Part shown: piece after piece, positions 4,723 to 45,218 of the stretch
Layout of the letters: the number at the start of each line of letters is the position of its first letter
Position numbering within the stretch: position 1 is the stretch's first letter
Source: Streptomyces dangxiongensis
GTDB taxonomy: Bacteria; Actinomycetota; Actinomycetes; Streptomycetales; Streptomycetaceae
DNA length: 64,000 bases
Reading direction: 5' to 3'
NCBI RefSeq assembly: GCF_003675325.1
Contig: NZ_CP033073.1
Span: 6,448,001 to 6,512,000 of the forward strand
Program-made: the position numbers and the translations under genes
Notes under the pieces: generated by a model
What the model saw: the letters and a program-made list of their open reading frames with translations, nothing else
The model's database searches: none
Told to the model about the DNA's origin: nothing

Positions 4723-5744
4723 TTGACCGCAGATGCGTCCGCCCCCTCCCTGATGACCGCGCTGGCCGCGGAAGCGACGGCCGCGGCCCACCCGCGTCCC
4801 CCCACCGCCCCCTGCGCCTGCGTCAGAGCCCCCCTCGCCGACCGCCAGGACGCCACGGTCGTGCGGCATGCCGGTACCGTCGCCAAGGCGCACGCGCCGG
4901 ACACCGAGCGGGCCGCGCTGATCCGGCGCCTCGCCACGGCCGCCGATCACCCGGACGTGCTGCTTCCCCCGCTCACCCCCGCGCCCCGGCCTTCCTGCGC
5001 GCCCGCCTGGTGACCTTCTGGCCCTACGGGGTCCCGGTGGACCGGGAGGATCCGGACGCGGCCCCCTGGGAGGCCGCCGCCGTCCTCCTGGCGAACCTGC
5101 ACCGCGCCCCCCTCCCCACCGGTCTCCCCCCGATGCGTGGTCCCGCGAAGGCCGCCCGCGCCGTCGCCCGGCTCCGCGCGGCCCTCCGCACCCCCGCCCC
5201 CGCAACCGCAACGGCCCCCGCAACCGCCCCCGCAACCGTCATCGCCGCCCCCCGCCTTCCGGCCGCCCGTCCCGTCCTGGACGCCTGGGCCGCCCTGCCC
5301 GCCTGGGCCCGCGCGAAGGCGCCGATGCCCGGCCCGCCGGCCCTCTGCCACGGTGATCTCCACCTCGGCCAACTGGTCCGGCATCCGGCGCCGGACGGCC
5401 CCTGGAAGCTGATCGACGTCGACGACCTGGGGGCCGGCGTCCCGGCCTGGGACCTGGCCCGCCCCGCCGCCTGGTACGCCTGCGGGCTCCTCCCGCCCGA
5501 CGAGTGGACCCGTTTCCTGACCGCCTACCGGCGCTCCGGCGGGCCGGCCGTACCCGCGCACGGCGACCCCTGGGCCGCCCTGGACGTGCCGGCCCGCGCC
5601 CTCACCGTCCAGACGGCCGCGCTCGCGCTCACGAAGGCGCTCGCGGCGGACCGCCCGCTGGACGAGGTGGAGCAGGCCCTGGTCGACGCGTGCGCGCGGA
5701 TGCCCTCCGTACCCCCTCGACCCGCGCCCGGTCCGTCGGACTAG
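4723..5744 (+). pseudogene. Aminoglycoside phosphotransferase-family protein, frameshifted
   Basis: The gene reads from TTG 4723 (GAGG at 4714-4717 is its ribosome site) as TADASAPSLMTALAAEA... through RHAGTVAKAHAP to PLLTP-like residues near 4980. It must then change frame to continue as AFLRARLVTFWPYGVPV from about 4988 to the stop at 5744. One base appears to be missing in the C/G run 4984-4989. The C-terminal part has the kinase-like CHGDLHLGQLV motif (about 5347-5379) and the IDVDDLGAGVPAWDLARPA metal-binding segment (about 5413-5466), typical of APH/choline-kinase-fold proteins. Restored length would be ~340 aa. Substrate unknown. Either a consensus error or a recent inactivating deletion. 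Confidence 0.8.
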
Positions 5745-5824
5745 GCTGCAACCGCCCGGGGCCGCACGGAGTCTGTCCTGGGGAAACACCAAGCAGGACC
5801 GACCGGCGAGGAGTTGAGCCGACC

Positions 5825-6130
5825 ATGCAGTGTCCGAAGTGCCATGCGCCGATGCACACCTACAACCGCAACGGCGTTCAGATCGAGCAGTGCAGCGGCT
5901 GCCGCGGCATCTTCCTCGACTACGGCGAGCTGGAGGCGCTGACCCGCCTGGAGACCCAGTGGTCCCAGCCCGCTCCGCCCCCGCCGGCCCCGCAGTCGTA
6001 CCCGGCCCCGCCCGCGCCCGCCTGGGGCGCCCCGCAGGGCGGTCACCACGGCGGTCACCACGGCGGCGGGCACGGTCACTACGAGCAGCACCGCCACAAG
6101 AGCTTCGGCCACATGCTCTTCTCTAGCTGA
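5825..6130 (+). CDS. TFIIB-type zinc-ribbon protein with His-rich tail
   Basis: 101 aa from ATG 5825, with GAGGAG about 11 nt upstream. The N-terminal ~40 residues form a zf-TFIIB domain: CPKCHAPM (C3, C6) and CSGCRGIFLDYGELE (C24, C27), a four-cysteine zinc site followed by the diagnostic acidic GELE segment. A Pro-rich linker (about 50-67) leads to a Gly/His tail with GGHHGGHHGGGHGHY, likely also able to bind metal. Role unknown; such proteins are common single-domain zinc ribbons in actinobacteria. A strong terminator follows 10 nt after the stop. Confidence 0.85.
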   Translation: MQCPKCHAPMHTYNRNGVQIEQCSGCRGIFLDYGELEALTRLETQWSQPAPPPPAPQSYPAPPAPAWGAPQGGHHGGHHGGGHGHYEQHRHKSFGHMLFSS

Positions 6131-6140
6131 GCGCACGAAG

Positions 6141-6173
6141 AAGCCCCCGGCCGTACGAGACGGCCGGGGGCTT
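6141..6173. terminator. Bidirectional terminator between zinc-ribbon gene and tRNA cluster
   Basis: AAGCCCCCGGCCGT (6141-6154), loop ACGAG, ACGGCCGGGGGCTT (6160-6173): a 14-bp perfect stem serving the plus-strand gene and the minus-strand tRNA operon. Confidence 0.9.
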
Positions 6174-6182
6174 GCTGCTGTG

Positions 6183-6254
6183 TGGACGATACTGGGATTG
6201 AACCAGTGACCTCTTCCGTGTCAGGGAAGCGCTCTCCCGCTGAGCTAATCGTCC
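6183..6254 (-). tRNA. tRNA-Val (GAC), copy 3 of cluster
   Basis: 72 nt on the minus strand. Acceptor stem GGACGAT/ATCGTCC, anticodon loop CTGACAC (anticodon GAC), T-loop GGTTCAATCC. No encoded CCA. Last gene of the Gly-Cys-Val-Val-Val operon. Confidence 0.96.
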
Positions 6255-6283
6255 GCGGACCGTGACTCGCGAGTCACGGACAG

Positions 6284-6355
6284 TGCGCGATACTGGGATT
6301 GAACCAGTGACCTCTTCCGTGTCAGGGAAGCGCTCTCCCGCTGAGCTAATCGCGC
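6284..6355 (-). tRNA. tRNA-Val (GAC), variant acceptor stem
   Basis: 72 nt, identical to its neighbours in the body but with acceptor stem GCGCGAT/ATCGCGC instead of GGACGAT/ATCGTCC; the compensatory changes preserve pairing. Anticodon GAC. Confidence 0.96.
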
Positions 6356-6390
6356 GGGCCGGATCTTGCCGTACGGGCCGGCGGATCCAG

Positions 6391-6462
6391 TGGACGATAC
6401 TGGGATTGAACCAGTGACCTCTTCCGTGTCAGGGAAGCGCTCTCCCGCTGAGCTAATCGTCC
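6391..6462 (-). tRNA. tRNA-Val (GAC), copy 1 of cluster
   Basis: 72 nt, identical in sequence to the copy at 6183-6254. Anticodon GAC in loop CTGACAC. Confidence 0.96.
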
Positions 6463-6463
6463 T

Positions 6464-6537
6464 TGGAGGTGGAGACGGGATTTGAACCCGTGTAGACGGC
6501 TTTGCAGGCCGTTGCCTCGCCTCTCGGCCACTCCACC
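6464..6537 (-). tRNA. tRNA-Cys (GCA)
   Basis: Acceptor stem GGTGGAG/CTCCACC, anticodon loop CTGCAAA (anticodon GCA). The 3' CCA appears genome-encoded (bases 6464-6466), unlike the Val genes beside it. Confidence 0.95.
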
Positions 6538-6575
6538 AGGAGTGTAGGGGATCGGGACGACCCCTTCTTCCTTCG

Positions 6576-6648
6576 AGCGGACGACGAGGCTCGAACTCGC
6601 GACCTCAACCTTGGCAAGGTTGCGCTCTACCAACTGAGCTACGTCCGC
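6576..6648 (-). tRNA. tRNA-Gly (GCC)
   Basis: 73 nt, acceptor stem GCGGACG/CGTCCGC, anticodon loop TTGCCAA (anticodon GCC). First gene of the minus-strand tRNA operon. Confidence 0.96.
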
Positions 6649-6689
6649 CTGTCGTTTCGGTGCGCTTGCGCGTCCCGGCGACGTGTTGA

Positions 6690-6717
6690 ACTCTAGCGGA
6701 TTCCCCGGCCAGCACAA
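6690..6717 (-). promoter_or_regulatory. Promoter of the tRNA Gly-Cys-Val operon
   Basis: On the minus strand: TTGTGC (-35, 6712-6717), 16-nt spacer, TAGAGT (-10, 6690-6695), about 41 nt before the tRNA-Gly 5' end. This fits the vegetative sigma consensus. Confidence 0.7.
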
Positions 6718-6826
6718 AAACGCGTTTGCGCAGCGTGCCGCCGTGCGCCCGCCCAAGCCGCCGGTCCGCGCCCCCTCCGTGACACCCCGAGGTCGACTTT
6801 CGGACACCCGCCCTAGACTCGACCAC

Positions 6827-7870
6827 GTGCTCCACCACCCTCCCCTGGCCCGCTTCGGCGACCGTGTCGCCACCGGCCTCCTCGACGTCACCACGGACCC
6901 GGCCGCGCTGGACTCCACCGGCTTCTGGGCCGTCTGCGCGGACTTCGAGGGCCGGCTGACCTGCGCCCGCTTCGCGGACGTACGCGAGGAGCCGGTGCCC
7001 GCCCCGGTGCCGGGCGCCTGGCGGGGCCCGGCGCCGGGGGACTGGACCTCCTCCCTGGACCGGGCCGCGTACACGGCGGCCGTCCGCAGGATCCGCGAGC
7101 ACATCGCGGCCGGCGACGTCTACCAGGCCAACCTCTGCCGGGTGCTCGGCGCGCCCGTCGCCCCGGACGCCGACGTCGACGCCCTGACCGCCCTGCTGGC
7201 CCGCGGCAACCCGGCGCCGTACGCGGGCACGGTCCGCCTGCCGGAGCACGGCGTGGAGATCGCCACCGCCTCGCCCGAGCTGTTCCTGCGCCGGGACGGC
7301 CGCGTCGTCGAATCGGGGCCGATCAAGGGCACCGGGCGCACCGAGGCGGACCTCCTGGAGAAGGACTACGCCGAGAACGTGATGATCGTGGACCTCGTCC
7401 GCAACGACATCGGGCGTGTCTGCGCGGCCGGCAGCGTGAGCGTCCCCGACCTGTGCGCCGTGGAGAAGCACCCGGGCCTCGTCCACCTCGTCTCCACCGT
7501 GCGCGGCGAGCTGCGCGAGGACGCCGGCTGGCCGGAGCTGCTGGCCGCCGCCTTCCCGCCCGGCTCGGTCACCGGCGCGCCGAAGCCGAGCGCCCTGGGG
7601 ATCATCGCGGCGCTGGAGACGGCACCGCGCGGCCCGTACTGCGGCGGGATCGGCTGGGTCGACGCCGACCGGGGCACCGGCGCGCTGGCCGTGGGCATCC
7701 GCACCTTCTGGATCGACCGGGCCGACGGCAACCTGCGCTTCGGCACCGGCGCCGGCATCACCTGGGGCTCCGACCCCGAGGGGGAGTGGCGGGAGACCGA
7801 GCTGAAGGCGTCCCGGCTGCTCGCGGTAGCGTCGGGATCGTACGAGGACACGGAAAGGGCGCTCACATGA
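6827..7870 (+). CDS. pabB: Chorismate-binding enzyme, aminodeoxychorismate synthase component I-like
   Basis: 347 aa from GTG 6827; a TAGACT -10 box lies about 8 nt upstream, so the mRNA is probably leaderless. It belongs to the anthranilate synthase I / PabB family: DVYQANL (97-103), SGPIKGT (163-169), DLVRNDIGR (189-197) and PGSVTGAPK (245-253) are all present, but the N-terminal regulatory domain is short. It would aminate chorismate to 4-amino-4-deoxychorismate with ammonia from a glutaminase partner not encoded here. Its stop overlaps the start of the next gene (ATGA), which encodes the lyase for the following step, supporting a p-aminobenzoate/folate role over anthranilate synthesis. 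Confidence 0.88.
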   Translation: MLHHPPLARFGDRVATGLLDVTTDPAALDSTGFWAVCADFEGRLTCARFADVREEPVPAPVPGAWRGPAPGDWTSSLDRAAYTAAVRRIREHIAAGDVYQANLCRVLGAPVAPDADVDALTALLARGNPAPYAGTVRLPEHGVEIATASPELFLRRDGRVVESGPIKGTGRTEADLLEKDYAENVMIVDLVRNDIGRVCAAGSVSVPDLCAVEKHPGLVHLVSTVRGELREDAGWPELLAAAFPPGSVTGAPKPSALGIIAALETAPRGPYCGGIGWVDADRGTGALAVGIRTFWIDRADGNLRFGTGAGITWGSDPEGEWRETELKASRLLAVASGSYEDTERALT

Positions 7871-8688
7871 GGATCTGGCTGGACGGCGGGCTGCGGGACT
7901 CGGACGCCGCCCGGGTCTCCGTCTTCGACCACGGGCTGACCGTCGGCGACGGCGTCTTCGAGACCGTGAAGGCGGTCGAGGGCAGGCCGTTCGCGCTCAC
8001 CCGGCACCTCGACCGGCTGACCCGCTCGGCCCGCGGCCTCGGCCTGCCCGACCCCGCCCACGACGAGATCCGCGAGGCCTGCACGGCGGTGCTCGCGGCC
8101 AACCCGATGCCGCTCGGCCGGCTGCGGATCACCTACACCGGCGGCTACGGCCCCCTCGGCTCCGACCGCGGCGCGCACGGCCCGACCCTCGTCGTCGCCC
8201 TCGGCGAGGTCACCCGCCGCCCGGACACCACCGCCGTCATCACCGTCCCGTGGACCCGCAACGAGCGCGGCGCCCTCACCGGCCTGAAGACCACCTCGTA
8301 CGCCGAGAACGTCGTCGCCCTGGCCCGCGCCCACCGGCACGGCGCCTCCGAGGCACTCTTCGGCAACACGGTCGGGCGGCTCTGCGAGGGCACCGGATCC
8401 AACGTCTTCGTCGTCCTCGACGGCGAGATCCACACCCCGCCGGTCGCCTCCGGCTGCCTGCCCGGCATCACCCGCGCCCTGACGGTCGAGTGGACGGGCG
8501 CCAGGGAGACGGACCTGCCGCTGGACGTCGTGCAGCGCGCCGACGAGGTCTTCCTGACCTCCACCCTGCGGGACGTGCAGGCCGTGCACCGGGTCGACGG
8601 CCGCGAACTGCCCGGCACGCCGGGCCCGGTGACCGCCAAGGCCATGCGGATCTTCGACGAGCTGTCCGGGCAGGACCTGGATCCCTGA
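7867..8688 (+). CDS. pabC: 4-amino-4-deoxychorismate lyase-like class IV aminotransferase
   Basis: 273 aa; its ATG overlaps the TGA of the preceding gene (ATGA at 7867-7870), so translation is coupled. Fold-type IV PLP enzyme: SVFDHGLTVGDGVFET (about 18-33), the PLP Lys 141 in LKTTSYAENV, and EGTGSNVFVV near residue 177. It should split aminodeoxychorismate into p-aminobenzoate and pyruvate. A D-amino-acid or branched-chain aminotransferase activity cannot be excluded from sequence alone, but pairing with the chorismate enzyme favours PabC. Confidence 0.88.
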   Translation: MRIWLDGGLRDSDAARVSVFDHGLTVGDGVFETVKAVEGRPFALTRHLDRLTRSARGLGLPDPAHDEIREACTAVLAANPMPLGRLRITYTGGYGPLGSDRGAHGPTLVVALGEVTRRPDTTAVITVPWTRNERGALTGLKTTSYAENVVALARAHRHGASEALFGNTVGRLCEGTGSNVFVVLDGEIHTPPVASGCLPGITRALTVEWTGARETDLPLDVVQRADEVFLTSTLRDVQAVHRVDGRELPGTPGPVTAKAMRIFDELSGQDLDP

Positions 8689-8740
8689 GCCCGGTGAAAA
8701 CAGGCTGACCCGACGGGCAGTCGCGGGTAGAACAGCCTTG

Positions 8741-9566
8741 ATGACCACGACCCTGCGGCCGGCCGAGCCGCTCCAGCAGCATCCCGACGGCAGCCGTTCA
8801 CGCCACTACCAGGTGTGCGTCAACAGCCGCCCCGTCGGCGAGATCCGTCTCGGCACCTCGCCCGACCTCGGTGCCTCGGTGGCCCGCATCATCGACCTGC
8901 GGATCGCCGAGCCCGACCGGCGGCGCGGCCGGGGCACCGTGGCCGCGCTCGCCGCGGAGGAGGTGGCGCGCGGCTGGGGCTGCACCCAGATCGAGACCAC
9001 CGTGCCCGCCACGGCGGACGCCGGGCTGCGCCTGCTCGGCGCCCTCGGCTACACCGTGCGCAACCGCCGCATGGACAAACGCCTCGGCACCGCTCCGCCC
9101 GACCTGCCGCGGGCCGGCCGTGCGCGACCCATGACGGAGGCCGAGTTCGACGCCTGGGCGGGAGACGGAGAGCGAGCGGTACGCGCGCACGTGGAGCGAG
9201 CGGGGCGTCCCCGAGGCCGCGGCCCGCGCCAAGGCCCGCGACGACCACGGGCGGCTGCTGCCGCACGGGCTCGCGACCGACGGCATGCTCTTCAGCGTGC
9301 TGGAGCACGAGGGCGACCGGGTGGGCATCCTGTGGGTGGCCCTGCGGCAGAACGAGGCGTTCGTCTTCGACGTCGAGACCGACGCCGCCCACCGCGGCCG
9401 GGGACACGGCCGCACGCTCATGCTGCTGGCGGAACGCCAGGCCATCGAGGCCGGCCGGCCGGTCCTCGGCCTCAACGTCTTCGCCGGCAACACCCCGGCC
9501 GAGCGGCTGTACGCGTCACTGGGCTACGAGCCGGTCACCCACTCCCTGACCAAGCCCCTGCTGTAG
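8741..9566 (+). pseudogene. Tandem-GNAT N-acetyltransferase, frameshifted
   Basis: Starts at ATG 8741, ~8 nt after a TAGAAC -10 box (leaderless-type). The first GNAT-like domain spans about residues 20-125 (RIIDLRIAEPDRRRGRGT, then AALAAEEVARGWG). After MTEAEFDAW (about 9131-9157) the frame must shift by one base to continue as ETESERYARTWSERG... and a second GNAT domain with HRGRGHGRTLMLLAE (about 9391-9435) and YASLGYEPVTHSLTKPLL at the end. One extra G in 9156-9162 explains the break. Restored length ~274 aa. Substrate unknown. Confidence 0.8.
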
Positions 9567-9723
9567 CGGGGCCGGCCGCCCCCGCGGGAGAGTCCGGGAC
9601 GCGCGCCGGAACGGGTCCGGGGAGGGCCTGAAGGACTCGGGGTGTGCCGGCCGGACTCGGCATGGGCCGGAACGTCCGGGTTTCCGGGGCGTGCCCGGAG
9701 GGGGCCGGGGCGCGGCGCGCGGT

Positions 9724-10248
9724 TCAGGCCGTCCCGTCGGCCAGCAGCCGGTCCACGATGCCCTCGATGCGCTCGCGCAGCCCCTCCTGGCTCTTGCCGC
9801 CGCAGAGGCGTTCGCCGCCGACGACGTACGTGGGCGTGCCGGTGACACCGATGGCCTTGCCCTCGGCCTGGTCGGCGTCGACGGTCAGGATATGCCGGCC
9901 GTCGATCAGCGCGGTGTCGAACTCCTCGGCGTCCAGTCCGAGTTCCCGGGCCACCTCGACCAGGAAGGGTTCGCCCCTACGGTCCAGTTCCTCCACCCGC
10001 TCCAGCACGGCCTCCACGTACGCCCAGCCCTGGCCCTGCTCCAGCGCCTCCTCGGCGGCCTGGGCGGCGGCGAAGGCGTGCTTGTGCTTCTCCAGGGGGA
10101 AGTGCCGCAGACGCGGTTCCAGCCGGTCACCGTAGCGGGCGCGCAGGGCGCGGACGTCGTCGAGGGCGCCGCGGCAGTCGGGGCACTGGAGTTCGCACCA
10201 GACGTCGAGGACGAGGGCGTCGGTGCGTACGGGTGAGGAGTCGCTCAT
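9724..10248 (-). CDS. DsbA-family thiol-disulfide oxidoreductase (FrnE-like)
   Basis: 174 aa from ATG 10248. Thioredoxin-fold DsbA family: CPDC active site at residues 22-25 right after the first strand, a helical insertion (about 55-120), and the cis-proline motif TGTPTYVVGG at 136-145 (Pro 139). There is no signal peptide, so it should act in the cytoplasm, as do FrnE/2-hydroxychromene-carboxylate isomerase relatives. An upstream in-frame extension to 10518 exists but has atypical composition and no ribosome site. Confidence 0.88.
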   Translation of the reverse strand: MSDSSPVRTDALVLDVWCELQCPDCRGALDDVRALRARYGDRLEPRLRHFPLEKHKHAFAAAQAAEEALEQGQGWAYVEAVLERVEELDRRGEPFLVEVARELGLDAEEFDTALIDGRHILTVDADQAEGKAIGVTGTPTYVVGGERLCGGKSQEGLRERIEGIVDRLLADGTA

Positions 10249-10456
10249 GTCCCCCAGTCTTCCAGGCGGGACCCGGGCGACCCAATCGGGACGCCGGAGC
10301 ACCGGCCGGGTGCGGGCGCCGGGATCCGCGTCCGGGGCCCGGCACTCCAGGAGGAGGCGACCCGGAGATGTCCCTGATGTGTGCCCGGGGCATGGCATCG
10401 CGGGGACGCGGCGGTGCAGGATGGAAGGGACGAACGAGCCCTGCCAGGAGGACCGG

Positions 10457-10891
10457 ATGATTGCCGAGACCGTCTGCTCCGCCGTGTCCGCGGCGGGCCT
10501 GGGCATCGCGGTGGTCACGGCCTACCGCAAGCGGTATCTGGCTGCGGCCCGTCTCGCGGCCTACTCCCTCGTGCCGGTCGGCCTGGTGATGACCGGGGTC
10601 GTCGGCTGGCTCGCCGGCACCGCCCTGAGCCCCACCGCCTGGGCGGGCTTCGGCCTGCTGGGCGCGGCCTGGTTGCTGTTCGCCGGTACGCGTGCCGTGG
10701 AGCGCCGGCGCGCAGGCGCCGGGTCCGGGCGCAAGGCGGCCCGGCAGGCCGGGCCGGAGGCGGTGGCCCCGGAGGCCTCGGCGCCCTCCCTCGGTCAGGG
10801 CCGGGCCGCCCGCCCCGCGTCCCGCCCGGCCGCCGGCCAGGGTGACGACTTCAGCGACATCGAGGCCATCCTCAAGAAGCACGGCATATGA
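10457..10891 (+). CDS. Three-pass membrane protein of unknown function
   Basis: 144 aa from ATG 10457, preceded by CAGGAGGACC, a near-perfect ribosome site. Hydrophobic segments at about residues 3-22, 31-52 and 60-79, then a basic, Ala/Gly/Pro-rich cytoplasmic tail that ends in a compact acidic/hydrophobic motif DDFSDIEAILKKHGI (130-144). The terminal motif looks like a helical peptide for protein-protein contact and is probably the conserved core. Not assigned to a known family. Confidence 0.8.
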   Translation: MIAETVCSAVSAAGLGIAVVTAYRKRYLAAARLAAYSLVPVGLVMTGVVGWLAGTALSPTAWAGFGLLGAAWLLFAGTRAVERRRAGAGSGRKAARQAGPEAVAPEASAPSLGQGRAARPASRPAAGQGDDFSDIEAILKKHGI

Positions 10892-11046
10892 CAGTCACAT
10901 GACTCGCTGAAACGACACAGTGGGTCCGGGGACGTCCGGAATCGTTCACGAGCCGAACGAGACCTCGCGGCATTCGGCGAACTCCCGCAAGATCCCTGAG
11001 CGGTGATCGCGTACGGGGTCCCTGGTAGGCCATCATCTGCCGCGAG

Positions 11047-11202
11047 ATGCTGGACACACCCCGACAGAGCGAGGCCGCGCCGCCGAAGGACGAGCCGCGC
11101 GGATGCCTCTTCGCCCTTTCCCAGCCACCGCTGATGATCTTCCTTGCGGTGATCGGGTGTCTGCTCCTCATGGCTGCGCTGCACGATCTGCTGTTGCTGT
11201 GA
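11047..11202 (+). CDS. Small tail-anchored-like membrane protein, 51 aa
   Basis: ATG 11047 opens a 51-aa frame. The N-terminal half is polar (QSEAAPPKDEPRG), and the C-terminal half is a hydrophobic segment beginning PPLMIFLAVIG and running to the end (LLLL). The ribosome site is weak (CGCGAG). Coding support comes only from composition and the clean hydrophobic helix. Function unknown. Confidence 0.5.
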   Translation: MLDTPRQSEAAPPKDEPRGCLFALSQPPLMIFLAVIGCLLLMAALHDLLLL

Positions 11203-11272
11203 GCCGTACACGTCCGTCCCGGCGCCACCCGCCGGGACCGACGTCGCCCCGGCCGCCGTCCGTCCCTTCCGG

Positions 11273-11833
11273 TCAGCCTGTCGCCTCTTTGCGCCGGGCC
11301 CGGTAGGCGGCGACGTGCAGCCGGTTCCCGCAGGTCCGGCTGTCGCAGTAGCGGCGCGAGCGGTTGCGGGAGAGATCGACGAAGGCGCGCCGGCAGTCCG
11401 GTGCCTCACAGCGCCGCAGCCGTTCCTGCTCCCCGGCCACCACGAAGAAGGCGAGCGCCATCCCGCAGTCGGCGGCGAGATGGTCGGCGACCGAGGCGCC
11501 CGGCGCGAAGTAGTGCACATGCCAGTCGTAGCCGTCGTGGTCCGTGAGACGGGGGGTGGTGCCCGCCGCGGCGACCAGTTCGTTGATCAGCGTGGCCGCC
11601 GACCGGGCATCGGGCGCGGCGAAGACCGAGGCGAACCGCCCCCGGATCCGGCGCACCGCGGAGAGGTCGAACTCCGAGAGGACGCCGACGTCGCTGATCT
11701 GGTGGTTCCGTACGAACTCCGCGAGAGCCCGGAGGTCGGGCAGCCCGTCCGCCGCCGGGTCCTCCTCCGGCGCGGAGTTCACCAGATCCACCACGGTGTC
11801 GAGGGCGCACCGGGTGTCGTGGGTGATCAGCAC
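11273..11833 (-). CDS. ABATE/CGNR zinc-finger transcriptional regulator
   Basis: 186 aa from GTG 11833 with AGGGAG 7 nt upstream. Residues ~5-130 form the alpha-helical ABATE stress-sensing-type domain. The C-terminus is a CGNR zinc finger: C142, C147, C163, C168 followed by GNR (169-171), then a basic RARRK tail for DNA binding. The family consists of putative one-component regulators in actinobacteria. A longer in-frame reading to 12157 crosses the ssgB terminator and has shadow-like Arg-rich composition, so it was rejected. Confidence 0.88.
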   Translation of the reverse strand: MLITHDTRCALDTVVDLVNSAPEEDPAADGLPDLRALAEFVRNHQISDVGVLSEFDLSAVRRIRGRFASVFAAPDARSAATLINELVAAAGTTPRLTDHDGYDWHVHYFAPGASVADHLAADCGMALAFFVVAGEQERLRRCEAPDCRRAFVDLSRNRSRRYCDSRTCGNRLHVAAYRARRKEATG

Positions 11834-11994
11834 GTTTCGCTCCCTGGCCTGGGGGTCGGGCGGACGCCCGCCGATGCTGGCCGATGGTAGCGACAACCAG
11901 GCCCGGTGCATCGCGGACCGTCCGTCCCGGCCGCGGGAGACACGGCCTCCCGTGCTCCGGGGCGCCCGGCCGGCCGCCCGGTGACAGCCGGCGC

Positions 11995-12048
11995 GCACAG
12001 GCCGGCGCCGTCGCCGCGATCGCTCACGGTGACGGCGCCGGCCTGTGC
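11995..12048 (-). terminator. Strong inverted repeat downstream of ssgB
   Basis: An 18-bp perfect inverted repeat: GCACAGGCCGGCGCCGTC (11995-12012) and its complement at 12031-12048, loop 18 nt. It lies 72 nt beyond the ssgB stop and before the CGNR gene start, so it should end ssgB transcription. Confidence 0.8.
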
Positions 12049-12119
12049 CGTTTGCGGTTGTCCTGGCCCGAGCCGTCTCCCCGAGTGGACGGCACCGGGC
12101 TGCTTCGGGGGGCCGCGAC

Positions 12120-12533: not shown

Positions 12534-12591
12534 AAGCGCCAGGGCCTTTCGCTCAGTGTGCGCTCGGGGATTCGCACGTCGGCGAAATCGA

Positions 12592-12625: not shown

Positions 12626-12723
12626 AGGGTTTTGCGTTGGTTTACGTAACTCTTCCGGCCGAGAACTCGTACCGGATCGGGGACCATTCCGGTGACCGAT
12701 TCGCTCCGGTAGGGTTTGTCTGT

Positions 12724-13272: not shown

Positions 13273-13344
13273 GGGCGATTAGCTCAGTGGGAGAGCGCTT
13301 CGTTCACACCGAAGAGGTCACTGGTTCGAACCCAGTATCGCCCA
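13273..13344 (+). tRNA. tRNA-Val (CAC), copy A
   Basis: 72 nt, acceptor stem GGGCGAT/ATCGCCC, anticodon loop TTCACAC (anticodon CAC), no encoded CCA. A TAATGT box at 13254-13259 is its likely -10. Identical to the copy at 15435-15506. Confidence 0.95.
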
Positions 13345-13350
13345 CCCGGA

Positions 13351-13387: not shown

Positions 13388-13643
13388 CGTGTCCGCCCCC
13401 GGTGCGGGCAGTGTCCGGCCGCCAGGGCGGCCCGGGGGAGTGCGGTGCCCAGCCCCCTGACCGCGACCGACGGGCCCACGGATCCGGGCCCCGGACGACG
13501 GCCCACGTACGGAGTGACCTCCCGTCCCGCGGGTCGACCGCCCTGCAGCCCTCAGGGACACGCGCCCTGCGACCGCGTGTCTCCTCGACAAATCCTGTGC
13601 GAGTCATTGACGCACCCCGGACCCCTCCGCGCCTTGTGCCGGC

Positions 13644-13665
13644 AAGCGCTTACTCGAAACGATCC
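13644..13665. promoter_or_regulatory. LacI-type operator-like sequences before the sugar-binding gene
   Basis: AAGCGCTT (13644-13651, palindromic) and CGAAACGATCC (13655-13665), the latter close to the GAAACGTTTC core of LacI/CcpA-family operators. They precede the decayed sugar-binding gene, as expected for a carbohydrate operon. No LacI regulator gene is in the window. Confidence 0.4.
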
Positions 13666-13692
13666 ATGGACGCTGCCGGGAGGGCCGACCGT

Positions 13693-14862
13693 GTGAACCG
13701 GCGGGTGCTTCAGGAGGCGGGCGATCCGGAGGGCGGCCGGGGCCTCGGTGGCCGTGGCCGGGCTCGGCGCGACGACCGGATGCGGGGGCGGCGGTTCCGG
13801 GAACGGGACCGTGACCTTCCGTTACGCCTGGGGGGTGCCGAGGAGCGGGCCGAGAGGATCGACCGGAGCATCGCACTGTTCGAGAAGAAGTACCCGAAGA
13901 TCGAGGTCAAGGCCGACTTTCAGACGTACGAGTCCTTCTGGGAGAAGTTCCGGACGCGGGCCGCGGGCGGAAATCCCCCGGGCATTTTCCAAAGCGCCGT
14001 CACTTTCCTTCGCAAATACGACAAACGCGGAATTCTCCTCGATCTGCGGTCGCAGGTGCAGGCCGGAAATCTGAGTCTGGATCACTTCCGGGAGAACGTC
14101 ACGAAGGTGGGGGAGGCCGACGGCAAGCAGCACGGAATTCCCGTCGGTTCGAAGACCATGGCGCTCGTCGTCGACAAAAAGCTCTTCGGCAGGGCCGGCG
14201 GCGCACCGAGCTCCGGCTGGACCTGGGACGAGTACTTCAAGGCGCTGAAGACGGTCCACGACAGGACGGGCGTTCCCGGGGACACCGGTTACTTCACCCG
14301 CATGTACCTGTACGACCTCCACTGCCGTCAGAACGGCAGGGTGTTCTTCACCGACGGCGGACTCGGCTTCGTCGGGGGCGACCTGACGGAGTGGTGGACG
14401 GACGGCTGCCGCCGGTCACGGCGGGTCGGAGTTCACCTCGTCCCCGATCCCCGGCGCAAGGTCCGCACCGACCCCTGCACCCCGACCCGCACGCCTGTCC
14501 ATCGGCTTCGGCACCGACAGGAGCGGCCTGGTCTCGGCCTGGTTCACGGAGTGGGAGCGCAGGGGCCGAGGTGGGAGAGGGCCAGGGCCCGCGTCCTGTC
14601 CACCATGGAGCCCATCGCCGCCCAGTCCGACGGCTGCGTGCGGGGCAGCGGCCTCTACGACATCGGCACCGGCGGGTTCGCCGTCGCGGACGAGCCCGCC
14701 GTCTCCGTCTCCCGCCTCTCGGCGGTCTTCGGCCTCGACGAACTGTGCGCCGAGCTCATCCACCTCGTCGACCTGCCCGCGTTCAAGAACGCCTACCTCG
14801 ACTACTGCCGGTACTCCGACGCCACGAAGGCCGAGCAGGATGCCCGCCTGGCCCGGACCGGG
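13693..14862 (+). pseudogene. Decayed ABC sugar-binding lipoprotein joined to a lyase remnant
   Basis: Coding-like pieces appear in several frames. GTG 13693 starts MNRR; a lipobox-like LGATTGCGGGGSG signal lies in another frame (about 13757-13795). From ~13845 a third frame gives a clear extracellular solute-binding domain (ERAERIDRSIALFEKKYPK, then PPGIFQSAVTFLRKY and GSKTMALVVDKKLFG) to about 14400. The G6 run at 13830-13835 looks one G short. The sequence then degenerates and ends in a different domain, YDIGTGGFAVADEPAVSVS followed by LPAFKNAYLDYCRYSDATKA (~14656-14830). I recall this pattern from exo-rhamnogalacturonan-lyase-like Tat proteins, but that was not checked. Best read as a deletion remnant of a pectin/rhamnose uptake locus. 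Confidence 0.7.
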
Positions 14863-14948
14863 GGAGCGCCGGCGCACGGGTGGCGGCGCTCGCGCCCCGA
14901 GCACGACCGCCCTCAGATACGGGCGGCCGCCGCGGGCACACTCACCCC

Positions 14949-15421: not shown

Positions 15422-15434
15422 TCAGTGCGTTCCC

Positions 15435-15506
15435 GGGCGATTAGCTCAGTGGGAGAGCGCTTCGTTCACACCGAAGAGGTCACTGGTTCGAACCCAGTAT
15501 CGCCCA
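15435..15506 (+). tRNA. tRNA-Val (CAC), copy B
   Basis: 72 nt, identical to 13273-13344: acceptor GGGCGAT/ATCGCCC, anticodon CAC. Confidence 0.95.
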
Positions 15507-15513
15507 CCGGGAG

Positions 15514-25807: not shown

Positions 25808-26113
25808 GATCCTGCCTCCCGTGCACGGTGAGGTCACTGTGGGCGCGGACATGCCGCATCCGCGTGCTGGGGCGGTTCCGGCGACGCCCGCGGTCATTCG
25901 AGCTTTCCACTCCCGTCACGCCGCGTCCATACGAAGGGCCACGAAGGGTGCGTACGGGACATCGAACGCGTCACGAACGCCCCGCGCACGGTGGTGCGCC
26001 CCGCTTCCCGGCGCGGCTGCGGGTGCCCGCCCGCCACGCACGCGCGTGCGTGGCTACGATGGGCCAGCCGGTGGCCACCAGGGGCCGCGGCGACACCGAC
26101 CGTCGGGAAGGCC
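25808..26113. other. Divergent spacer between EF-G2 and the PIM operon
   Basis: 306 bases without a supported gene. It holds the EF-G2 promoter on the minus strand and the pgsA1 promoter with its palindrome at 26034-26060 on the plus strand. Confidence 0.6.
26034..26060 (+). promoter_or_regulatory. 20-bp palindrome abutting the -10 box of the PIM operon
   Basis: CCACGCACGCGCGTGCGTGG (26034-26053) is a perfect palindrome, followed one base later by TACGAT (26055-26060), a good -10 box, 54 nt before pgsA1. The palindrome occupies the -35/spacer region, the classical place for a repressor or activator site. Confidence 0.55.
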
Positions 26114-31925: not shown

Positions 31926-32059
31926 CGCGCACGGCTGCTCACGGGCCGACGGGACATCACCCGTCGGCCCGTCGCGTTGCCGGGCGCCCGGCGGGTGCGA
32001 GGCGTTGTCGGTGGCACCCGCTAGCCTGCACGAACAGGCCGTCGATCGGAGGGGGCGCG

Positions 32060-33201: not shown

Positions 33202-33225
33202 CCGAGACCGTCGTAAGGCACACAC

Positions 33226-37031: not shown

Positions 37032-37034
37032 GCG

Positions 37035-38144
37035 ATGTCGAAACTCGGCAACCTCGGCGCTCGACTGCACCGCGGCGAGATCAGCTACGACTTCGTCGGC
37101 AAGCGCAAGATCTGGTACGGCGTCTCGATCCTCATCACCATCACCGCCATCGTCGGCCTGGCGGTACGCGGCCTGAACATGGGCATCGAGTTCCAGGGCG
37201 GCGCGGTCTTCACCACGCCGACCAAGATGAGCACCTCGGTGGCCCAGGCCGAGGAGTACGCCGTGGACGCCTCCGGTCATGAGGCGATCGTGCAGAAGCT
37301 CGGCAACGGCAGCCTGCGCATCCAGATCGCCGGCATCGAGACCGACCAGTCCGACCGGATCAAGCAGGACCTGGCGAAGGACCTGAACCTCGACCCCGAG
37401 AAGCTCGCCGCCGACCTGGTCGGCCCGAGCTGGGGCGAGCAGATCGCCAACAAGGCCTGGGAGGGCCTGGCGATCTTCATGGTCCTCGTCGTGATCTACC
37501 TGGCGATCGCCTTCGAGTGGCGCATGGCCATCGCGGCGCTGGTCGCGCTGATCCACGACATCACCATCACGACCGGTATCTACGCCCTGGTCGGCTTCGA
37601 GGTCACGCCCGGCACCGTCATCGGCCTGCTGACCATCCTCGGTTACTCGCTCTACGACACGGTCGTCGTCTTCGACAGCCTCAAGGAGCAGACCAAGGAC
37701 ATCACCAAGCAGACCCGCTGGACGTACAGCGACATCGCCAACCGGTCGATCAACGGCACCCTGGTCCGTTCCATCAACACCACGGTCGTCGCCCTGCTGC
37801 CGGTCGCCGGTCTGCTCTTCATCGGCGGCGGCTTCCTCGGCGCGGGCACGCTCAACGACATCTCGCTGTCGCTGTTCGTCGGTCTCGCGGCCGGTGCCTA
37901 CTCCTCGATCTTCATCGCCACGCCGCTCGTCGCCGACCTCAAGGAGCGCGAGCCGGCGATGAAGGCCCTCACCAAGCGGGTCATGGCCAAGCGTGCCGAG
38001 GCCGCGGACGGCGGGGACCCCGCTCAGACGTCCGCCGCCCCGGGTGACGACGCGGACGACGCCACCCCGGCCGTCGTGGGCCCGCGCAACCAGCCCGCCT
38101 CCCGCGGCCGGGGCCGCGGCCGGACCTCGGGGAAGCGCCGATGA
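37035..38144 (+). CDS. secF: Protein translocase subunit SecF
   Basis: 369 aa from ATG 37035, only 3 nt after the secD stop. One N-terminal helix, the GIEFQGGAVF segment, then five helices with TIGLLTILGYSLYDTVVVFD-like motif (VIGLLTILGYSLYD / TVVVFDSLKE) and LVRSINTTVVALLPVAG. The tail is polar, ending SRGRGRGRTSGKRR. Partner of SecD; its stop overlaps the apt start. Confidence 0.96.
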   Translation: MSKLGNLGARLHRGEISYDFVGKRKIWYGVSILITITAIVGLAVRGLNMGIEFQGGAVFTTPTKMSTSVAQAEEYAVDASGHEAIVQKLGNGSLRIQIAGIETDQSDRIKQDLAKDLNLDPEKLAADLVGPSWGEQIANKAWEGLAIFMVLVVIYLAIAFEWRMAIAALVALIHDITITTGIYALVGFEVTPGTVIGLLTILGYSLYDTVVVFDSLKEQTKDITKQTRWTYSDIANRSINGTLVRSINTTVVALLPVAGLLFIGGGFLGAGTLNDISLSLFVGLAAGAYSSIFIATPLVADLKEREPAMKALTKRVMAKRAEAADGGDPAQTSAAPGDDADDATPAVVGPRNQPASRGRGRGRTSGKRR

Positions 38145-38689
38145 CCGAGCTCGCGGACATCTCCACGCTGCTGCTCAGCCGCATCCGTGACGTCGCCGAC
38201 TATCCGGAGCCGGGCGTGATGTTCAAGGACATCACCCCGCTCCTGGCGGACCCGGCGGCCTTCGCGGCGCTCACCGACGCCCTCGCCGAGATCGCCGTCG
38301 CCACCGGCGCGACCAAGGTCATCGGCCTGGAGGCCCGTGGCTTCATCCTCGGCGCCCCGGTCGCCGTCCGCGCGGGACTGGGCTTCATCCCGGTCCGCAA
38401 GGCGGGCAAGCTGCCGGGAGCCACCCTGCGCCAGGCCTACGACCTGGAGTACGGCTCGGCCGAGATCGAGGTGCACGCCGAGGACCTGGCCTTTGGGGAC
38501 CGCATCCTGATCGTGGACGACGTCCTGGCCACCGGCGGCACCGCCGAGGCCGCGATCCGGCTCGTCCGACGCGCCGGTGCAGAGGTGGCAGGTCTCGCCG
38601 TCCTGATGGAACTGGGCTTCCTCGAGGGCCGCGTCCGGCTGGAAACGGCGCTTGCTGGGGCACCGCTGGAAGCCCTCCTCACCGTCTGA
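38141..38689 (+). CDS. apt: Adenine phosphoribosyltransferase
   Basis: 182 aa, ATG 38141 overlapping the secF stop (ATGA). PRPP-binding loop ILIVDDVLATGGTA (122-135), GFKDITPLL-type N-terminal motif (VMFKDITPLL, 26-35) and EARGFILG (64-71). Salvages adenine to AMP. The apt-relA adjacency of actinomycetes is interrupted here by a secreted-protein gene. Confidence 0.96.
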   Translation: MTELADISTLLLSRIRDVADYPEPGVMFKDITPLLADPAAFAALTDALAEIAVATGATKVIGLEARGFILGAPVAVRAGLGFIPVRKAGKLPGATLRQAYDLEYGSAEIEVHAEDLAFGDRILIVDDVLATGGTAEAAIRLVRRAGAEVAGLAVLMELGFLEGRVRLETALAGAPLEALLTV

Positions 38690-38717
38690 GACAGCCGGTA
38701 GGCGAGGGAACGCATGG

Positions 38718-38756
38718 CGGAGGGCGCCCCCCGGATACCCCGGGGGGCGCCCTCCG
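38718..38756 (+). terminator. Strong terminator after apt
   Basis: CGGAGGGCGCCCCCCGG (38718-38734), 5-nt loop, CCGGGGGGCGCCCTCCG (38740-38756): 17 perfect pairs. Ends the yajC-secD-secF-apt transcript. Confidence 0.9.
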
Positions 38757-38887
38757 TGCTGCGGTCGCTGCGTGACGTTGAGTTACACGTGGCACCTCAG
38801 GTGTTGCTCAAATGTGTATCAATCCTGCTCACCCGTTGATTAGATCTCCCTGTGCCACTGACCGAGGCATGACACGGGAGGAATCGG

Positions 38888-39301
38888 ATGAACATGTCAC
38901 GCAAGGTGACGACGGGGGTCGTCTCGCTTGTCTCCGCTGCCGCACTCACGTCCGGCGCGACGACCGCCAGCGCGAGCCCGGCTTCCGCACCGGTCAAGAC
39001 GTCAAACGTGGTAGCGGCCAACTGCGGCGAGTGGATGCGGGCGGGCAGTCTGCCGGGCAGGTGGAGCACCGTCAAGGACGGCTGTGGTCACTTCGGACGC
39101 CCGGGCCTGAAAATGGGCTACCAGTGGGCGGTATTCAGGGGCGGCTCGATCTGCGTCAAGGTGCAGGGTTTCGTCAACGGACGCGCCAAGTGGTACAACG
39201 CCGGCTGCGGCAAGACCGGCGCTGTCAAGGTGCCGTGGGGGAACGTCCTTGCCGAGAAGGAGATGAAGGTGAAGGGCGCCGCGCTCTTCAACTGGAGGTG
39301 A
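38888..39301 (+). CDS. Small secreted protein with four cysteines
   Basis: 137 aa from ATG 38888 with GGAGGAAT upstream. A Sec signal peptide (basic MNMSRK, hydrophobic 8-27, cleavage about ASAS30-P31) leads to a ~107-residue mature domain with exactly four Cys (46, 66, 89, 107), able to form two disulfides, and many aromatic/Gly residues (MGYQWAVFRGG, NGRAKWYNAGCG). The pattern suggests a compact beta-rich extracellular protein. No family recognised. Its upstream region (38770-38880) is noticeably richer in A/T than the surroundings, consistent with later insertion between apt and relA. Confidence 0.8.
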   Translation: MNMSRKVTTGVVSLVSAAALTSGATTASASPASAPVKTSNVVAANCGEWMRAGSLPGRWSTVKDGCGHFGRPGLKMGYQWAVFRGGSICVKVQGFVNGRAKWYNAGCGKTGAVKVPWGNVLAEKEMKVKGAALFNWR

Positions 39302-39475
39302 CGTCGCCGTCCCGCGCTGCTCGAAGCGGAGGGCCGGGCGGGTGAGTGAGGCCAGGGGCCCGAGCTGACTCGGGCCCCTGGCCGGTGAACGGCCTCGTCG
39401 GCACCGAAGACGTCGGCTCGCTACCATGGACGTCCGGGCCTGACCGGGGACCCGGATCGCGCACGAGGAGTCCTC

Positions 39476-42014
<2,539 letters not shown>

Positions 42015-42074
42015 CCGGGGCGAGCCGGCCGAGCCGTGTGGAGCCGTTCGAGCCGGTCATGGCCGGGCATACGA

Positions 42075-42104
42075 AAGGGCCCCGTACGCGTGTACGGGGC
42101 CCTT
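42075..42104. terminator. Bidirectional terminator between relA and the DUF349 gene
   Basis: AAGGGCCCCGTAC (42075-42087), loop GCGT, GTACGGGGCCCTT (42092-42104), 13 perfect pairs between two convergent genes. Confidence 0.85.
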
Positions 42105-42125
42105 CGCGCGAGCGGCGGGAGATCT

Positions 42126-43355
42126 TCAGCCGCCGAACTCCTGCAAGCCCTTCAGGGCCTGCTCCAGGAGCTCCTGACGGCCTTCCAGCTCACGCTGGAG
42201 CTTGTCGGCCCTGGCGTTGTTGCCCTGGGCGCGCGCCTGCTCGATCTGCGCCCCCAGCTTGTCCACGGCGGCCTGGAGCTGACCCGTCAGACCCTCGGCA
42301 CGCGCGCGTGCCTCCGGGTTCGTCCGGCGCCACTCGGCCTCCTCGGCCTCCTGGATCGCCCGCTCCACCGCGTGCATCCGGCCCTCGACCTTCGGCCGCG
42401 CGTCCCGCGGGACGTGACCGATGGCCTCCCAGCGTTCGTTGATCGCGCGGAAGGCGGCCCGGGTGGCCTTCAGGTCCTGGACCGGCAGGAGCTTCTCGGC
42501 CTCCTCGGCCAGCTCCTCCTTCAGCTTCAGGTTCTCCGACTGCTCCGCGTCCCGCTCGGCGAACACCGAGCTGCGGGCGGCGAAGAAGACGTCCTGGGCG
42601 CCGCGGAAGCGGTTCCACAGGTCGTCCTCGTGCTCGCGCTGGGCGCGGCCCGCGGCCTTCCACTCCGCCATCAGCTCGCGGTACCGGGCCGCCGTCGGAC
42701 CCCAGTCCGCCGAACCCGACAGCGCCTCCGCCTCGGCGACCAGCCGCTCCTTGACGCGGCGGGCGTCCTCGCGCTGCGCGTCCAGTTGCGCGAAGTGCGC
42801 CTTGCGGCGCTTGGAGAACGCCGACCGGGCGTGCGAGAAGCGGTGCCACAGCTCGTCGTCGGACTTGCGGTCCAGACGCGGCAGGCCCTTCCAGGTGTCC
42901 ACCAGCGCCCGCAGCCGCTCACCGGCGGCCCGCCACTGGTCGGACTGCGCCAGCTCCTCCGCCTCGGTGACCAGCGCCTCCTTGGCATGGCGGGCCTCGT
43001 CGGACTGCTTGGCGCGCTGCGCCTTGCGCTCCTCGCGGCGCGCCTCGACGGTCTCCACCAGCTTGTCCAACCGCGTGCGCAGGGCGTCCAGGTCACCGAC
43101 CGCGTGGTGCGCGTCCACCTGCTCGCGCAAGTGGCCGATCGCCGTCTGGGCGTCCTTCGCCGACAGGTCGGTGGTCCGCACCCGCTTCTCGAGGAGGCCG
43201 ATCTCGACAACCAGGCCCTCGTACTTGCGCTCGAAGTAGGCAAGCGCCTCCTCGGGGGAGCCGGCCGCCCAGGAGCCGACGACCTGCTCGCCGTCGGCCG
43301 TACGCACGTACACGGTCCCCGTCTCGTCGACGCGTCCCCACGGGTCGCTGCTCAC
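42126..43355 (-). CDS. DUF349 coiled-coil protein
   Basis: 409 aa from GTG 43355 with GGAGGCG upstream. Built of repeated ~70-residue DUF349 helical units (W-x-x-A/G...R...F-R motifs: SDQWRAAGERLRALVDTWK, SADWGPTAARYRELMAEWK, DLWNRFRGAQDVFFAAR, INERWEAIGHVPRD). The C-terminus is a charged coiled coil. Cytoplasmic, highly acidic/basic; function unknown but widely conserved in actinobacteria next to relA. Ends 22 nt from the shared terminator. Confidence 0.9.
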   Translation of the reverse strand: MSSDPWGRVDETGTVYVRTADGEQVVGSWAAGSPEEALAYFERKYEGLVVEIGLLEKRVRTTDLSAKDAQTAIGHLREQVDAHHAVGDLDALRTRLDKLVETVEARREERKAQRAKQSDEARHAKEALVTEAEELAQSDQWRAAGERLRALVDTWKGLPRLDRKSDDELWHRFSHARSAFSKRRKAHFAQLDAQREDARRVKERLVAEAEALSGSADWGPTAARYRELMAEWKAAGRAQREHEDDLWNRFRGAQDVFFAARSSVFAERDAEQSENLKLKEELAEEAEKLLPVQDLKATRAAFRAINERWEAIGHVPRDARPKVEGRMHAVERAIQEAEEAEWRRTNPEARARAEGLTGQLQAAVDKLGAQIEQARAQGNNARADKLQRELEGRQELLEQALKGLQEFGG

Positions 43356-43509
43356 AGCGCCTCCTCCACATGATGCCTGCGGGGGGCCTCAGCACCCCCG
43401 GGCATCGTCCACAGTTTCGTCACGGCCAACATAGGCGACCGGCGGGCGGCCTGTCCGCATCCAGCGCGACCGAAATTCCGCGGTCGGCCGTCCGGCGCCA
43501 CCCCGGTCG

Positions 43510-44340
43510 TCAGGACTTCGTCACCGTCGCCCTGTCGATCACCACGGTGGCGTTCGGGGCGGTGTTGCCGGTGCTCGGGTCGGCCGGCCGGCTGCCGGCC
43601 GCGGCGATCTTCGTGAGCACCTTCATGCCCGACGCGGACACCGTGCCGAACGGGGTGTAGCTCGGCGGCAGCGGGGTGTCCTTGTAGACGAGGAAGAACT
43701 GGCTGCCGCCGGTGTGCTTCTTCCCGGTGTTGGCCATCGCGACCGTGCCCGCCGGGTAGGTGTTGCCCTTGAGGGCCTTGTCCTTCAGGTTCTCGTCCGG
43801 GAGGGTGTAGCCCGGCCCGCCCATCCCCGTGCCCTGGGGGTCGCCGCACTGGAGGACGAAGATCTGCGCGGTGGTGAGCCGGTGGCACTTGGTGTGGTCG
43901 AAGTAGCCCTTGCCCGCCAGGAAGCCGAACGAGTTCACCGTGTGCGGGGCCGCCGCCGTCTTCAGCGCGATGTCGATGTCGCCGCACGTCGTCGCGAGCT
44001 TCATCGAGTACTTCGCCGACGTGTCGATCGTCATCGCCGGCTCCTTCTTCCAGCCGAGCTTCTTCACCGAGCCGGCCGCCGGCTTCGCGCACGGGTCGGG
44101 CGCCTTGCTGGTGGGCGCCGCGCTCGGCGTGGTGTCGGCGCTCGCGTTCGTCTTCTTGCCGTCGTCCTTGAGGACCCCGGTCGTGTACAGCGCGACACTG
44201 CCGATCACGACCACGCCCAGGACCGACGCGATCACGGAGTTGCGCAGACGGGCCTTGCGCCGCGCCTGGGTGCGCCGCTGCTGCTGCCGCAAGAACTTCT
44301 CCCGGGCGAGCTGACGCCGCCGCTGCTCCTGGCTGACCAC
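43510..44340 (-). CDS. Membrane-anchored cyclophilin-type peptidyl-prolyl isomerase
   Basis: 276 aa from GTG/ATG-type start at 44340. An Arg/Gln-rich N-terminus (RRRQLAREKFLRQQQRR) is followed by one membrane helix (about 33-55, NSVIASVLGVVVIGSVALY), a Thr/Ala/Pro linker with a Cys pair, then the cyclophilin domain: NSFGFLAGKGYFDHTKCHRL, VLQCGDPQGTGMGGPGY, GTVAMANTGKKHTGGSQFF, PFGTVSASGMKVL. The classical FHRxx motif is TKCHRL. Extracytoplasmic folding helper. Confidence 0.93.
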   Translation of the reverse strand: MVSQEQRRRQLAREKFLRQQQRRTQARRKARLRNSVIASVLGVVVIGSVALYTTGVLKDDGKKTNASADTTPSAAPTSKAPDPCAKPAAGSVKKLGWKKEPAMTIDTSAKYSMKLATTCGDIDIALKTAAAPHTVNSFGFLAGKGYFDHTKCHRLTTAQIFVLQCGDPQGTGMGGPGYTLPDENLKDKALKGNTYPAGTVAMANTGKKHTGGSQFFLVYKDTPLPPSYTPFGTVSASGMKVLTKIAAAGSRPADPSTGNTAPNATVVIDRATVTKS

Positions 44341-44509
44341 CGGGTTATCTCCTCATGCGTGTCGTGGCGGGCGGTACGCGTGCGTCCTCGTGAGCCGACC
44401 GCAGTGTGTAGCCCCGTACCGTATATGGGTTAGCTGAGGAAACGGCAGCGCCGGTAGGCTTCTGACCGCAGTCTGAAGCAGCCCGTGACCGACACAACGA
44501 AGGACGATC

Positions 44510-45218
44510 GTGCTCATTGCCGGGTTCCCCGCCGGGGCCTGGGGGGACGAACTGTTACCTCGTCGCCCCCGCCGCCGGTGCGGAGTGCGTGATCATCGAC
44601 CCCGGCCACCAGGCCGCCGAAGGCGTCGCGGAAGCGCTGCGCAAGCATCGGCTCAAGCCCGTCGCCGTCGTCCTCACCCACGGCCACATCGACCACGTGG
44701 CCTCGGTCGTCCCCGTCTGCGGGGCGCACGACGTACCGGCCTGGATCCACCCCGAGGACCGGTACATGCTGAGCGACCCCGAGAAGGCGCTCGGCCGTTC
44801 CATCGGCATGCCGCTGATGGGCGAGCTGACCGTGGGGGAGCCGGACGACGTCAAGGAGCTGACCGACGGCGCCACCCTCGAACTGGCGGGCCTGGAGTTC
44901 TCCGTCGCGCACGCGCCGGGCCATACCAAGGGGTCGGTGACCTTCCGGATGCCCGAGAACGCCGACATCCCGTCGGTGTTCTTCTCCGGGGATCTGCTGT
45001 TCGCCGGCTCCATCGGACGCACCGACCTGCCGGGCGGATCCATGACGGACATGTTCGAGTCGCTGGCCCGCGTGTGCCTGCCGCTCGACGACTCCACCGT
45101 GGTGCTGTCCGGACACGGCCCCCAGACGACCATCGGCCAGGAGCGCGCCACCAACCCCCATCTGCGGCAGGTGGCGGCCGGCCAGGGAGCCTCCCCGGCT
45201 CCCCGACGAGGAATGTGA
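44510..45218 (+). CDS. Metallo-beta-lactamase-fold hydrolase (glyoxalase II-like), frameshifted
   Basis: Starts at GTG 44510 as [11 protein letters not shown]. The G6 run at 44541-44546 appears to hold one G too many, because the product continues in another frame as [21 protein letters not shown]... to TGA 45218. Metal ligands are intact: THGHIDH (HxHxDH), a later [25 protein letters not shown] and [11 protein letters not shown]. Restored length ~235 aa. Family members hydrolyse S-lactoylglutathione-like thioesters; in actinomycetes the substrate is unknown. It lies 13 nt before hisS and is probably cotranscribed. Confidence 0.88.

Follow-up and report, generated by a model that had tools for sequence, protein, structure and literature searches.

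Frame breaks in a window of the Streptomyces dangxiongensis genome: consensus error as the best explanation in four genes, and a decayed remnant in the fifth

The window, the whole stretch of DNA analysed here (64,000 nucleotides, G000:C2:6448001-6512000), comes from the genome of Streptomyces dangxiongensis (G000, 8.16 Mb in two contigs) and has a GC content of 70-75%. Frames are broken in five of its genes, which encode a phosphotransferase, a GNAT acetyltransferase, a sugar-binding protein, RelA and an MBL-fold hydrolase. A previous sequence-only reading held that the pattern across all five fits homopolymer errors in the assembly consensus better than independent gene decay. In our analysis, consensus error best explains the breaks in relA and in the MBL, GNAT and phosphotransferase genes. 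The explanation does not extend to the sugar-binding gene, a truncated fusion remnant that has lost a base and is best explained as a real pseudogene. The features are listed below; relatives carry labels of the same kind as G000.

4594..5744, plus strand: APH-fold phosphotransferase-family gene in two frames, the 5' piece in the frame of 4594-5013 and the 3' piece at 5010-5744; PF01636 on the 3' piece; three relatives
8738..9566, plus strand: GNAT acetyltransferase-family gene; frame change near 9157-9170 by base gain; four relatives
13679..14425, plus strand: 5' remnant of a sugar ABC-transporter substrate-binding protein gene, a genuine pseudogene; frame change at 13831-13833; four relatives
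14425..14436, no strand: deletion junction, about 5.1-5.2 kb relative to G020, G007, G049 and G009; the flanking window segments match separated parts of G020
14436..14868, plus strand: 3' remnant of a PcRGLX-type gene; two more frame changes, one near 14491 and one near 14562, four relatives each
39476..42014, plus strand: relA (RelA/SpoT family) in three frames, with pieces at 39476-39589, about 39592-39696 and 39699-42014
44510..45218, plus strand: MBL-fold hydrolase gene whose frame changes after the first 11 codons; six relatives (nucleotide alignment), five (frame-aware alignment)

The breaks are truly in the given sequence. All six stretches quoted in the sequence-only reading lie where it had placed them, three of them being 6-base G or C runs (13830-13835, 39691-39696 and 44541-44546). 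In nucleotide alignments, the length at each site differs from that of every aligned relative: three for the phosphotransferase, four each for the GNAT and sugar-binding genes, and six each for relA and MBL. Frame-aware alignment of proteins from six relatives (276 predicted, 222 aligned to the window) gives the frame change with three relatives for the phosphotransferase, four each for GNAT and the sugar-binding gene, six at both relA sites and five for MBL. The earlier list of breaks was incomplete, however, as it overlooked the frame changes near 14491 and 14562 and the deletion of about 5.1 kb beside them.

One intact window gene is 83-92% identical in protein to named Streptomyces loci (the best 80 of 564 that encode a relative), among which are S. 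sp. Ru62, S. echinatus and S. cinerochromogenes. At relA, the nearest DNA relatives among 100 genomes searched are G020 and G016, at 94%. A conspecific comparison is impossible because the nearest of 391 other same-genus genomes is at 94% DNA identity, and no homologue above 90% protein identity was found among the listed cluster representatives. A named locus was scored as broken only when every reference protein used showed the break; the 80 loci include L096, the genome of one phosphotransferase reference.

In the phosphotransferase gene, the frame changes by base gain near 4985-4997. At least 75% of this gene is carried by 64 of the 80 named loci, and none of the 64 is broken by both references. 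For GNAT, two of 79 named carrier loci are broken by both references, at other places in the gene. These two loci have their own, different frame breaks, at 12138 in L052 (Streptomyces sp. Ru62) and at 12449 in L082 (Streptomyces sp. DHE7-1).

Both relA breaks count as base gains, and the MBL gene is likewise broken by a gain. The position of the second relA break varies by relative within 39677-39701, and it reads as a gain with five relatives and as a loss with G007. A single frame is kept in 28 of 29 relA loci, among them L003, which belongs to the reference itself. In the remaining locus, L022, a weakly aligned change falls about five residues away from the first relA site of the window. 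All of the domains named by Pfam (HD, RelA_SpoT, TGS and ACT) fall in the last piece, and an open frame from 39810 holds them. Upstream of relA and outside the coding region, a G run at about 39446 is one base shorter than in all six aligned relatives. In the MBL gene, a TTG at 44517 shares the main body's frame, and the Lactamase_B domain match begins at residue 7 of that frame. The conserved stretch spanning the MBL break is in one frame in 115 of 120 listed homologues (7399 found), and the query matches 392 of 392 same-genus genomes searched, own genome included, a few of them weakly. The sequence-only reading had considered relA and MBL otherwise intact, and their main pieces indeed match G020 at 97% and 94% identity, the aligned segments being free of internal stops.

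Breaks of the same kind recur well beyond the window. We dropped an initial tblastn frame-split screen because over-extended starts produced many false splits, and replaced it with a frame-aware aligner, start trimming and coding-pattern filters. When first used, with looser flanks of 8 residues, this procedure retained 10 of 17 events over 400 kb of G000, compared to 4 of 21 in G009. We then surveyed 864 kb (G000:C2:5648001-6512000), requiring at least 15 residues on both flanks. Proteins from G009 give 24 events in 18 of 453 genes, 22 of them gains and 2 losses; proteins from G049 give 14 gains and no losses in 9 of 230 genes. With the same filters, the control with G009 as target yields 6 events in 456 genes (G000 proteins) and 5 in 274 (G049 proteins), and with G049 as target, 0 in 246 (G000 proteins) and 2 in 278 (G009 proteins). 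Together, the controls give 8 gains and 5 losses. The two G000 losses are one at 6474089, which we judged to be a start-site artefact, and one in a glucose-6-phosphate isomerase gene. MBL was left out of this count because its 5' flank has only 11 residues. Nucleotide alignment of 10 sites from one 400-kb stretch shows extra G000 bases in all 10, one with a one-base loss nearby.

Merging calls no more than 40 bases apart and pooling both query sets leaves 25 distinct gains, or 29 per Mb, a count that covers only frame-breaking changes in conserved genes. These breaks are spread across unrelated genes and regions at a rate above that of comparable genomes, as consensus errors should be.

A homology-free scan of codon usage, trained on G049, gives a similar rate. 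Without filters its noise was too high (at the loosest setting, the four large sequences gave 62-101 calls per Mb), so it was used only in filtered form. It makes 26 calls in the 864 kb of G000, or 30.1 per Mb, and a distant region of 400 kb has 11, or 27.5 per Mb. Densities in the relatives are 8.0 per Mb for G009 (7 calls, 880 kb) and 6.2 per Mb for G049 (3 calls, 480 kb). Within the 864 kb, 16 of the 26 calls coincide with homology-based events and 10 are unconfirmed by homology. Five of the 11 core candidates were scanned piecewise: three are adjoining or paired parts of one family, one is two different genes and one is uninformative. The three split-looking candidates are a GMC oxidoreductase, a poly-gamma-glutamate hydrolase and YccF, although for YccF two adjacent domains may be normal.

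We named 17 of the 18 genes with G009 events through the G009 copy; NCBIfam is the source of the names thiE, trpE and zwf. Broken genes include those for anthranilate synthase component I (trpE, two breaks), thiamine phosphate synthase (thiE) and glucose-6-phosphate dehydrogenase (zwf), together with a proteasome beta subunit gene (prcB), a glutamine-synthetase-family gene and the RelA gene. Losses of the anthranilate synthase and the glucose-6-phosphate dehydrogenase would by themselves be bearable because the genome has another one-frame member of each family. The thiamine phosphate synthase-type locus, L179, is split in two frames at about 5795577 (G000:C2); no other TMP-TENI match was found in the genome.

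The gains are clustered and sit in GC-rich surroundings. Seven adjacent pairs of gains lie within 400 bases of each other, whereas random placement predicts 0.32, and several genes carry two or three breaks in a span of 500 bases. GC averages 0.764 within 100 bases of the gains, compared to 0.726, and was as high in 0 of 5000 draws (26 positions, one relA site counted twice). The 864-kb region as a whole has 72.5% GC, compared to 71.2% and 70.8% for the G009 and G049 stretches. When MBL is added to the 25 gains, the nearest gap string consists of G and C only in 22 of the 26 sites and repeats a neighbouring base in 19. These strings are the nearest gap within 35 bases, are 1-7 bases long (one is 3), and some are not the frame-breaking gap itself.

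Such a setting of G/C runs and GC-rich patches is what consensus errors would be expected to show. The emphasis of the sequence-only reading on homopolymers holds only in part, because G/C runs of at least 5 occur near 6 of the 26 sites, compared to 3% of random coding positions, but at 15 of the 26 no G/C run within 8 bases exceeds a length of 3. The sites are better described as short G/C runs in GC-rich patches than as homopolymers.

The broken genes otherwise look like their neighbours. Among genes passing the alignment filters, mean amino-acid identity to G009 is 84.4% for the 16 insertion-broken genes and 84.7% for 438 others (P=0.80), and broken and other genes do not differ in how often codon positions 1-2 have changed relative to position 3 (P=0.56). 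No relaxed selection is seen in the 16 broken genes relative to the 438 others.

Taken together, these results make it very probable that residual errors of the assembly consensus, and not mutations of the organism, broke the frames of the phosphotransferase, GNAT, relA and MBL genes. Read support would presumably be poor or biased in GC-rich stretches, and the consensus would there retain one or two surplus bases, usually G or C, next to short G/C runs, in many cases with others within a few hundred bases. We infer that reads would not support these bases and that read support plays a part; the technology is left unnamed because nanopore read errors, as described in the part of one source available to us (PMC4719071), and a long-read case, in the available part of another (PMC12007338), are deletion-rich. 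Extrapolated from the observed rate, there may be a few hundred such errors over the 8.16-Mb genome.

Several observations weigh against this interpretation. The genome is listed as 100% complete. The gain bias depends on one method, the frame-aware alignment, which scores losses slightly worse because a loss forfeits one residue. When clean 1-2 base gaps are counted over all aligned DNA without regard to frame, gains and losses number 46 and 40 with G009, and 28 and 30 with G049; outside predicted genes, the counts are 33 and 22, and 17 and 16. Inside the relative's intact genes, with looser flanks, they are 16 and 14 with G009, and 13 and 5 with G049, and the control pair G049-G009 gives 6 and 3, and 4 and 4. 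The frame-blind counts are thus far less one-sided and do not by themselves reveal a bias toward gains. We trust the frame-aware count more because the frame-blind counts take in frame-restoring gap pairs, near-start gaps and alignment noise. A gene at about 6227900-6228400 has three gains relative to G049, and its G009 counterpart is also frame-broken relative to G049, so this gene may be truly variable. The GNAT and phosphotransferase genes evolve fast, and real loss would therefore be easier there.

Two further points of this kind concern substitutions. Mismatches are raised near the gains (0.21 compared to 0.145 amino acids per codon). Among private changes in the window (10878 codons, five relatives), the ratio of nonsynonymous to synonymous is 0.48 in G000, the highest of six genomes, compared to 0.20-0.38 in the five relatives. 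From this ratio and the raised mismatches, some relaxed or biased evolution may have taken place. The private amino-acid changes of G000 are also biased toward GC, with 82 AT-to-GC and 24 GC-to-AT nucleotide changes; the corresponding numbers are 55 and 33 in G003, 19 and 19 in G007, 57 and 65 in G009, 14 and 18 in G020, and 12 and 33 in G049.

This bias, with the relative frequency of the private changes, makes a mutation process directed toward G and C conceivable, and thus bears on the alternative that the breaks are real and very recent. A mutator or long-cultivated lineage would have acquired short G/C insertions, with genes inactivated or truncated at the N terminus and with relA and MBL saved by internal starts. 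We consider this unlikely. It would have to explain how 18 of 453 aligned genes came to be broken with no loss of constraint, why several of them were hit two or three times within 500 bases, and how the sole TMP-TENI locus came to be split. Insertions also account for only 17% of the 346 Salmonella pseudogenes in the available part of one survey (PMC2916853), whereas 22 of the 24 events here are gains and constraint is unchanged. We nevertheless keep the probability of real mutation above zero because the open relA frame from 39810, with its Pfam domains, and the in-frame TTG of MBL at 44517 would make a real truncation survivable. Streptomyces relA mutants are viable.

Less likely by about half, in our estimate, is that the genome is correct throughout and that a recent insertion-biased, G/C-adding process struck GC-rich patches in clusters. 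About 4% of conserved genes would then be broken, including the sole thiamine phosphate synthase-type locus, and internal starts or recoding would keep their products.

That all five genes are ordinary decaying pseudogenes is very improbable, although decay does hold for the sugar-binding gene and its PcRGLX neighbour. Window positions 13590-14425 correspond to G020 111-963 and positions 14436-14847 to G020 6105-6519, and a further gap lies near 14847 (G020 6519 to 6816). Some 5 kb separate the sugar-binding gene from the PcRGLX-type gene in G020, G007, G049 and G009. The window has the two fused, and a single open frame at 13402-15072 matches both families. The intact G020 copies encode a 427-amino-acid SBP_bac_1 protein and a 940-amino-acid three-domain PcRGLX protein. 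All three small frame changes in the remnant are losses, and G003 is without the segment. Among the 80 named loci, 67 carry some sugar-binding-gene sequence, 12 have none but match tRNA-Val queries and 1 shows no marker, some contigs being short.

With several independent lesions, one of them a large deletion, the stretch at 13.7-14.9 kb has the character of a pseudogene and, judged by these alignments, is a decayed operon remnant, a separate and real event of ordinary operon loss. Its frame-breaking short indels resemble those of the Salmonella set (PMC2916853, as far as the available text describes them). As an account of all five genes, decay predicts mixed or loss-biased indels and relaxed constraint, and neither is seen in the frame-aware alignment and the conservation test. 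The high identity to G020 and the stop-free segments of relA and MBL are likewise not those of pseudogenes. Two tRNA-Val(CAC) genes, at 13273-13346 and 15435-15508, bracket the remnant.

Programmed frameshifting or transcriptional slippage at G/C runs, which would leave the genes functional, could draw on the runs of 5-6 near 6 of the 26 sites but is hardly credible, given the 15 sites with no run above 3, the unrelated nature of the affected genes and a break that relatives do not share (none of the 3-6 aligned per site has the same length, and frames are kept in nearly all loci, L022 being a weak exception).

Consensus errors of the kind proposed have precedents. A PacBio assembly (HGAP/Quiver) of Streptomyces albus SM254, with 7.17 Mb, 73% GC and a quality value (QV) above 50, held 205 residual indels before Illumina correction, nearly all in G or C homopolymers, according to the available part of its report (PMC4832174). 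Like the present genome, it is a high-GC Streptomyces with small indels, at about 29 per Mb in both. The errors there were found by Illumina reads and the available text gives no indel signs, whereas ours are deduced from relatives, lie mostly at short runs and are dominated by gains in frame-aware alignment.

The available part of the Kastor report describes gene-fragmenting errors in small-genome long-read assemblies, with 1708 deletions and 900 insertions in one Pseudomonas syringae set (PMC12007338). As in those cases, the breaks here were detected by disagreement with relatives, are indels of 1-2 bases and tend to match the adjacent run. Unlike in that deletion-rich set, gains dominate here.

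If consensus error is the right account, the apparent loss of genes in this assembly, among them relA, thiE, trpE and zwf, should not be treated as biological unless reads bear it out, and a genome listed as 100% complete may still contain widespread frame errors. Even without reads, artefact and decay can be partly separated, by the sign of the indels in frame-aware alignment, their clustering, their GC context and the unchanged constraint on the genes. The useful part of the present analysis is the 864-kb comparison and the separation of two kinds of break.

Other frame calls in the window were set aside as start-site or overlap artefacts. They lie near 10252-10431, 14921, 25873-26089, 31955-32055, 34544, 46634, 49699 and 51917, and each was made with one or two relatives and with flanks that are short, poorly coding-like or weakly aligned. 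Elsewhere in the window, a tRNA cluster at 6182-6648 holds three tRNA-Val(GAC) genes together with tRNA-Cys and tRNA-Gly.

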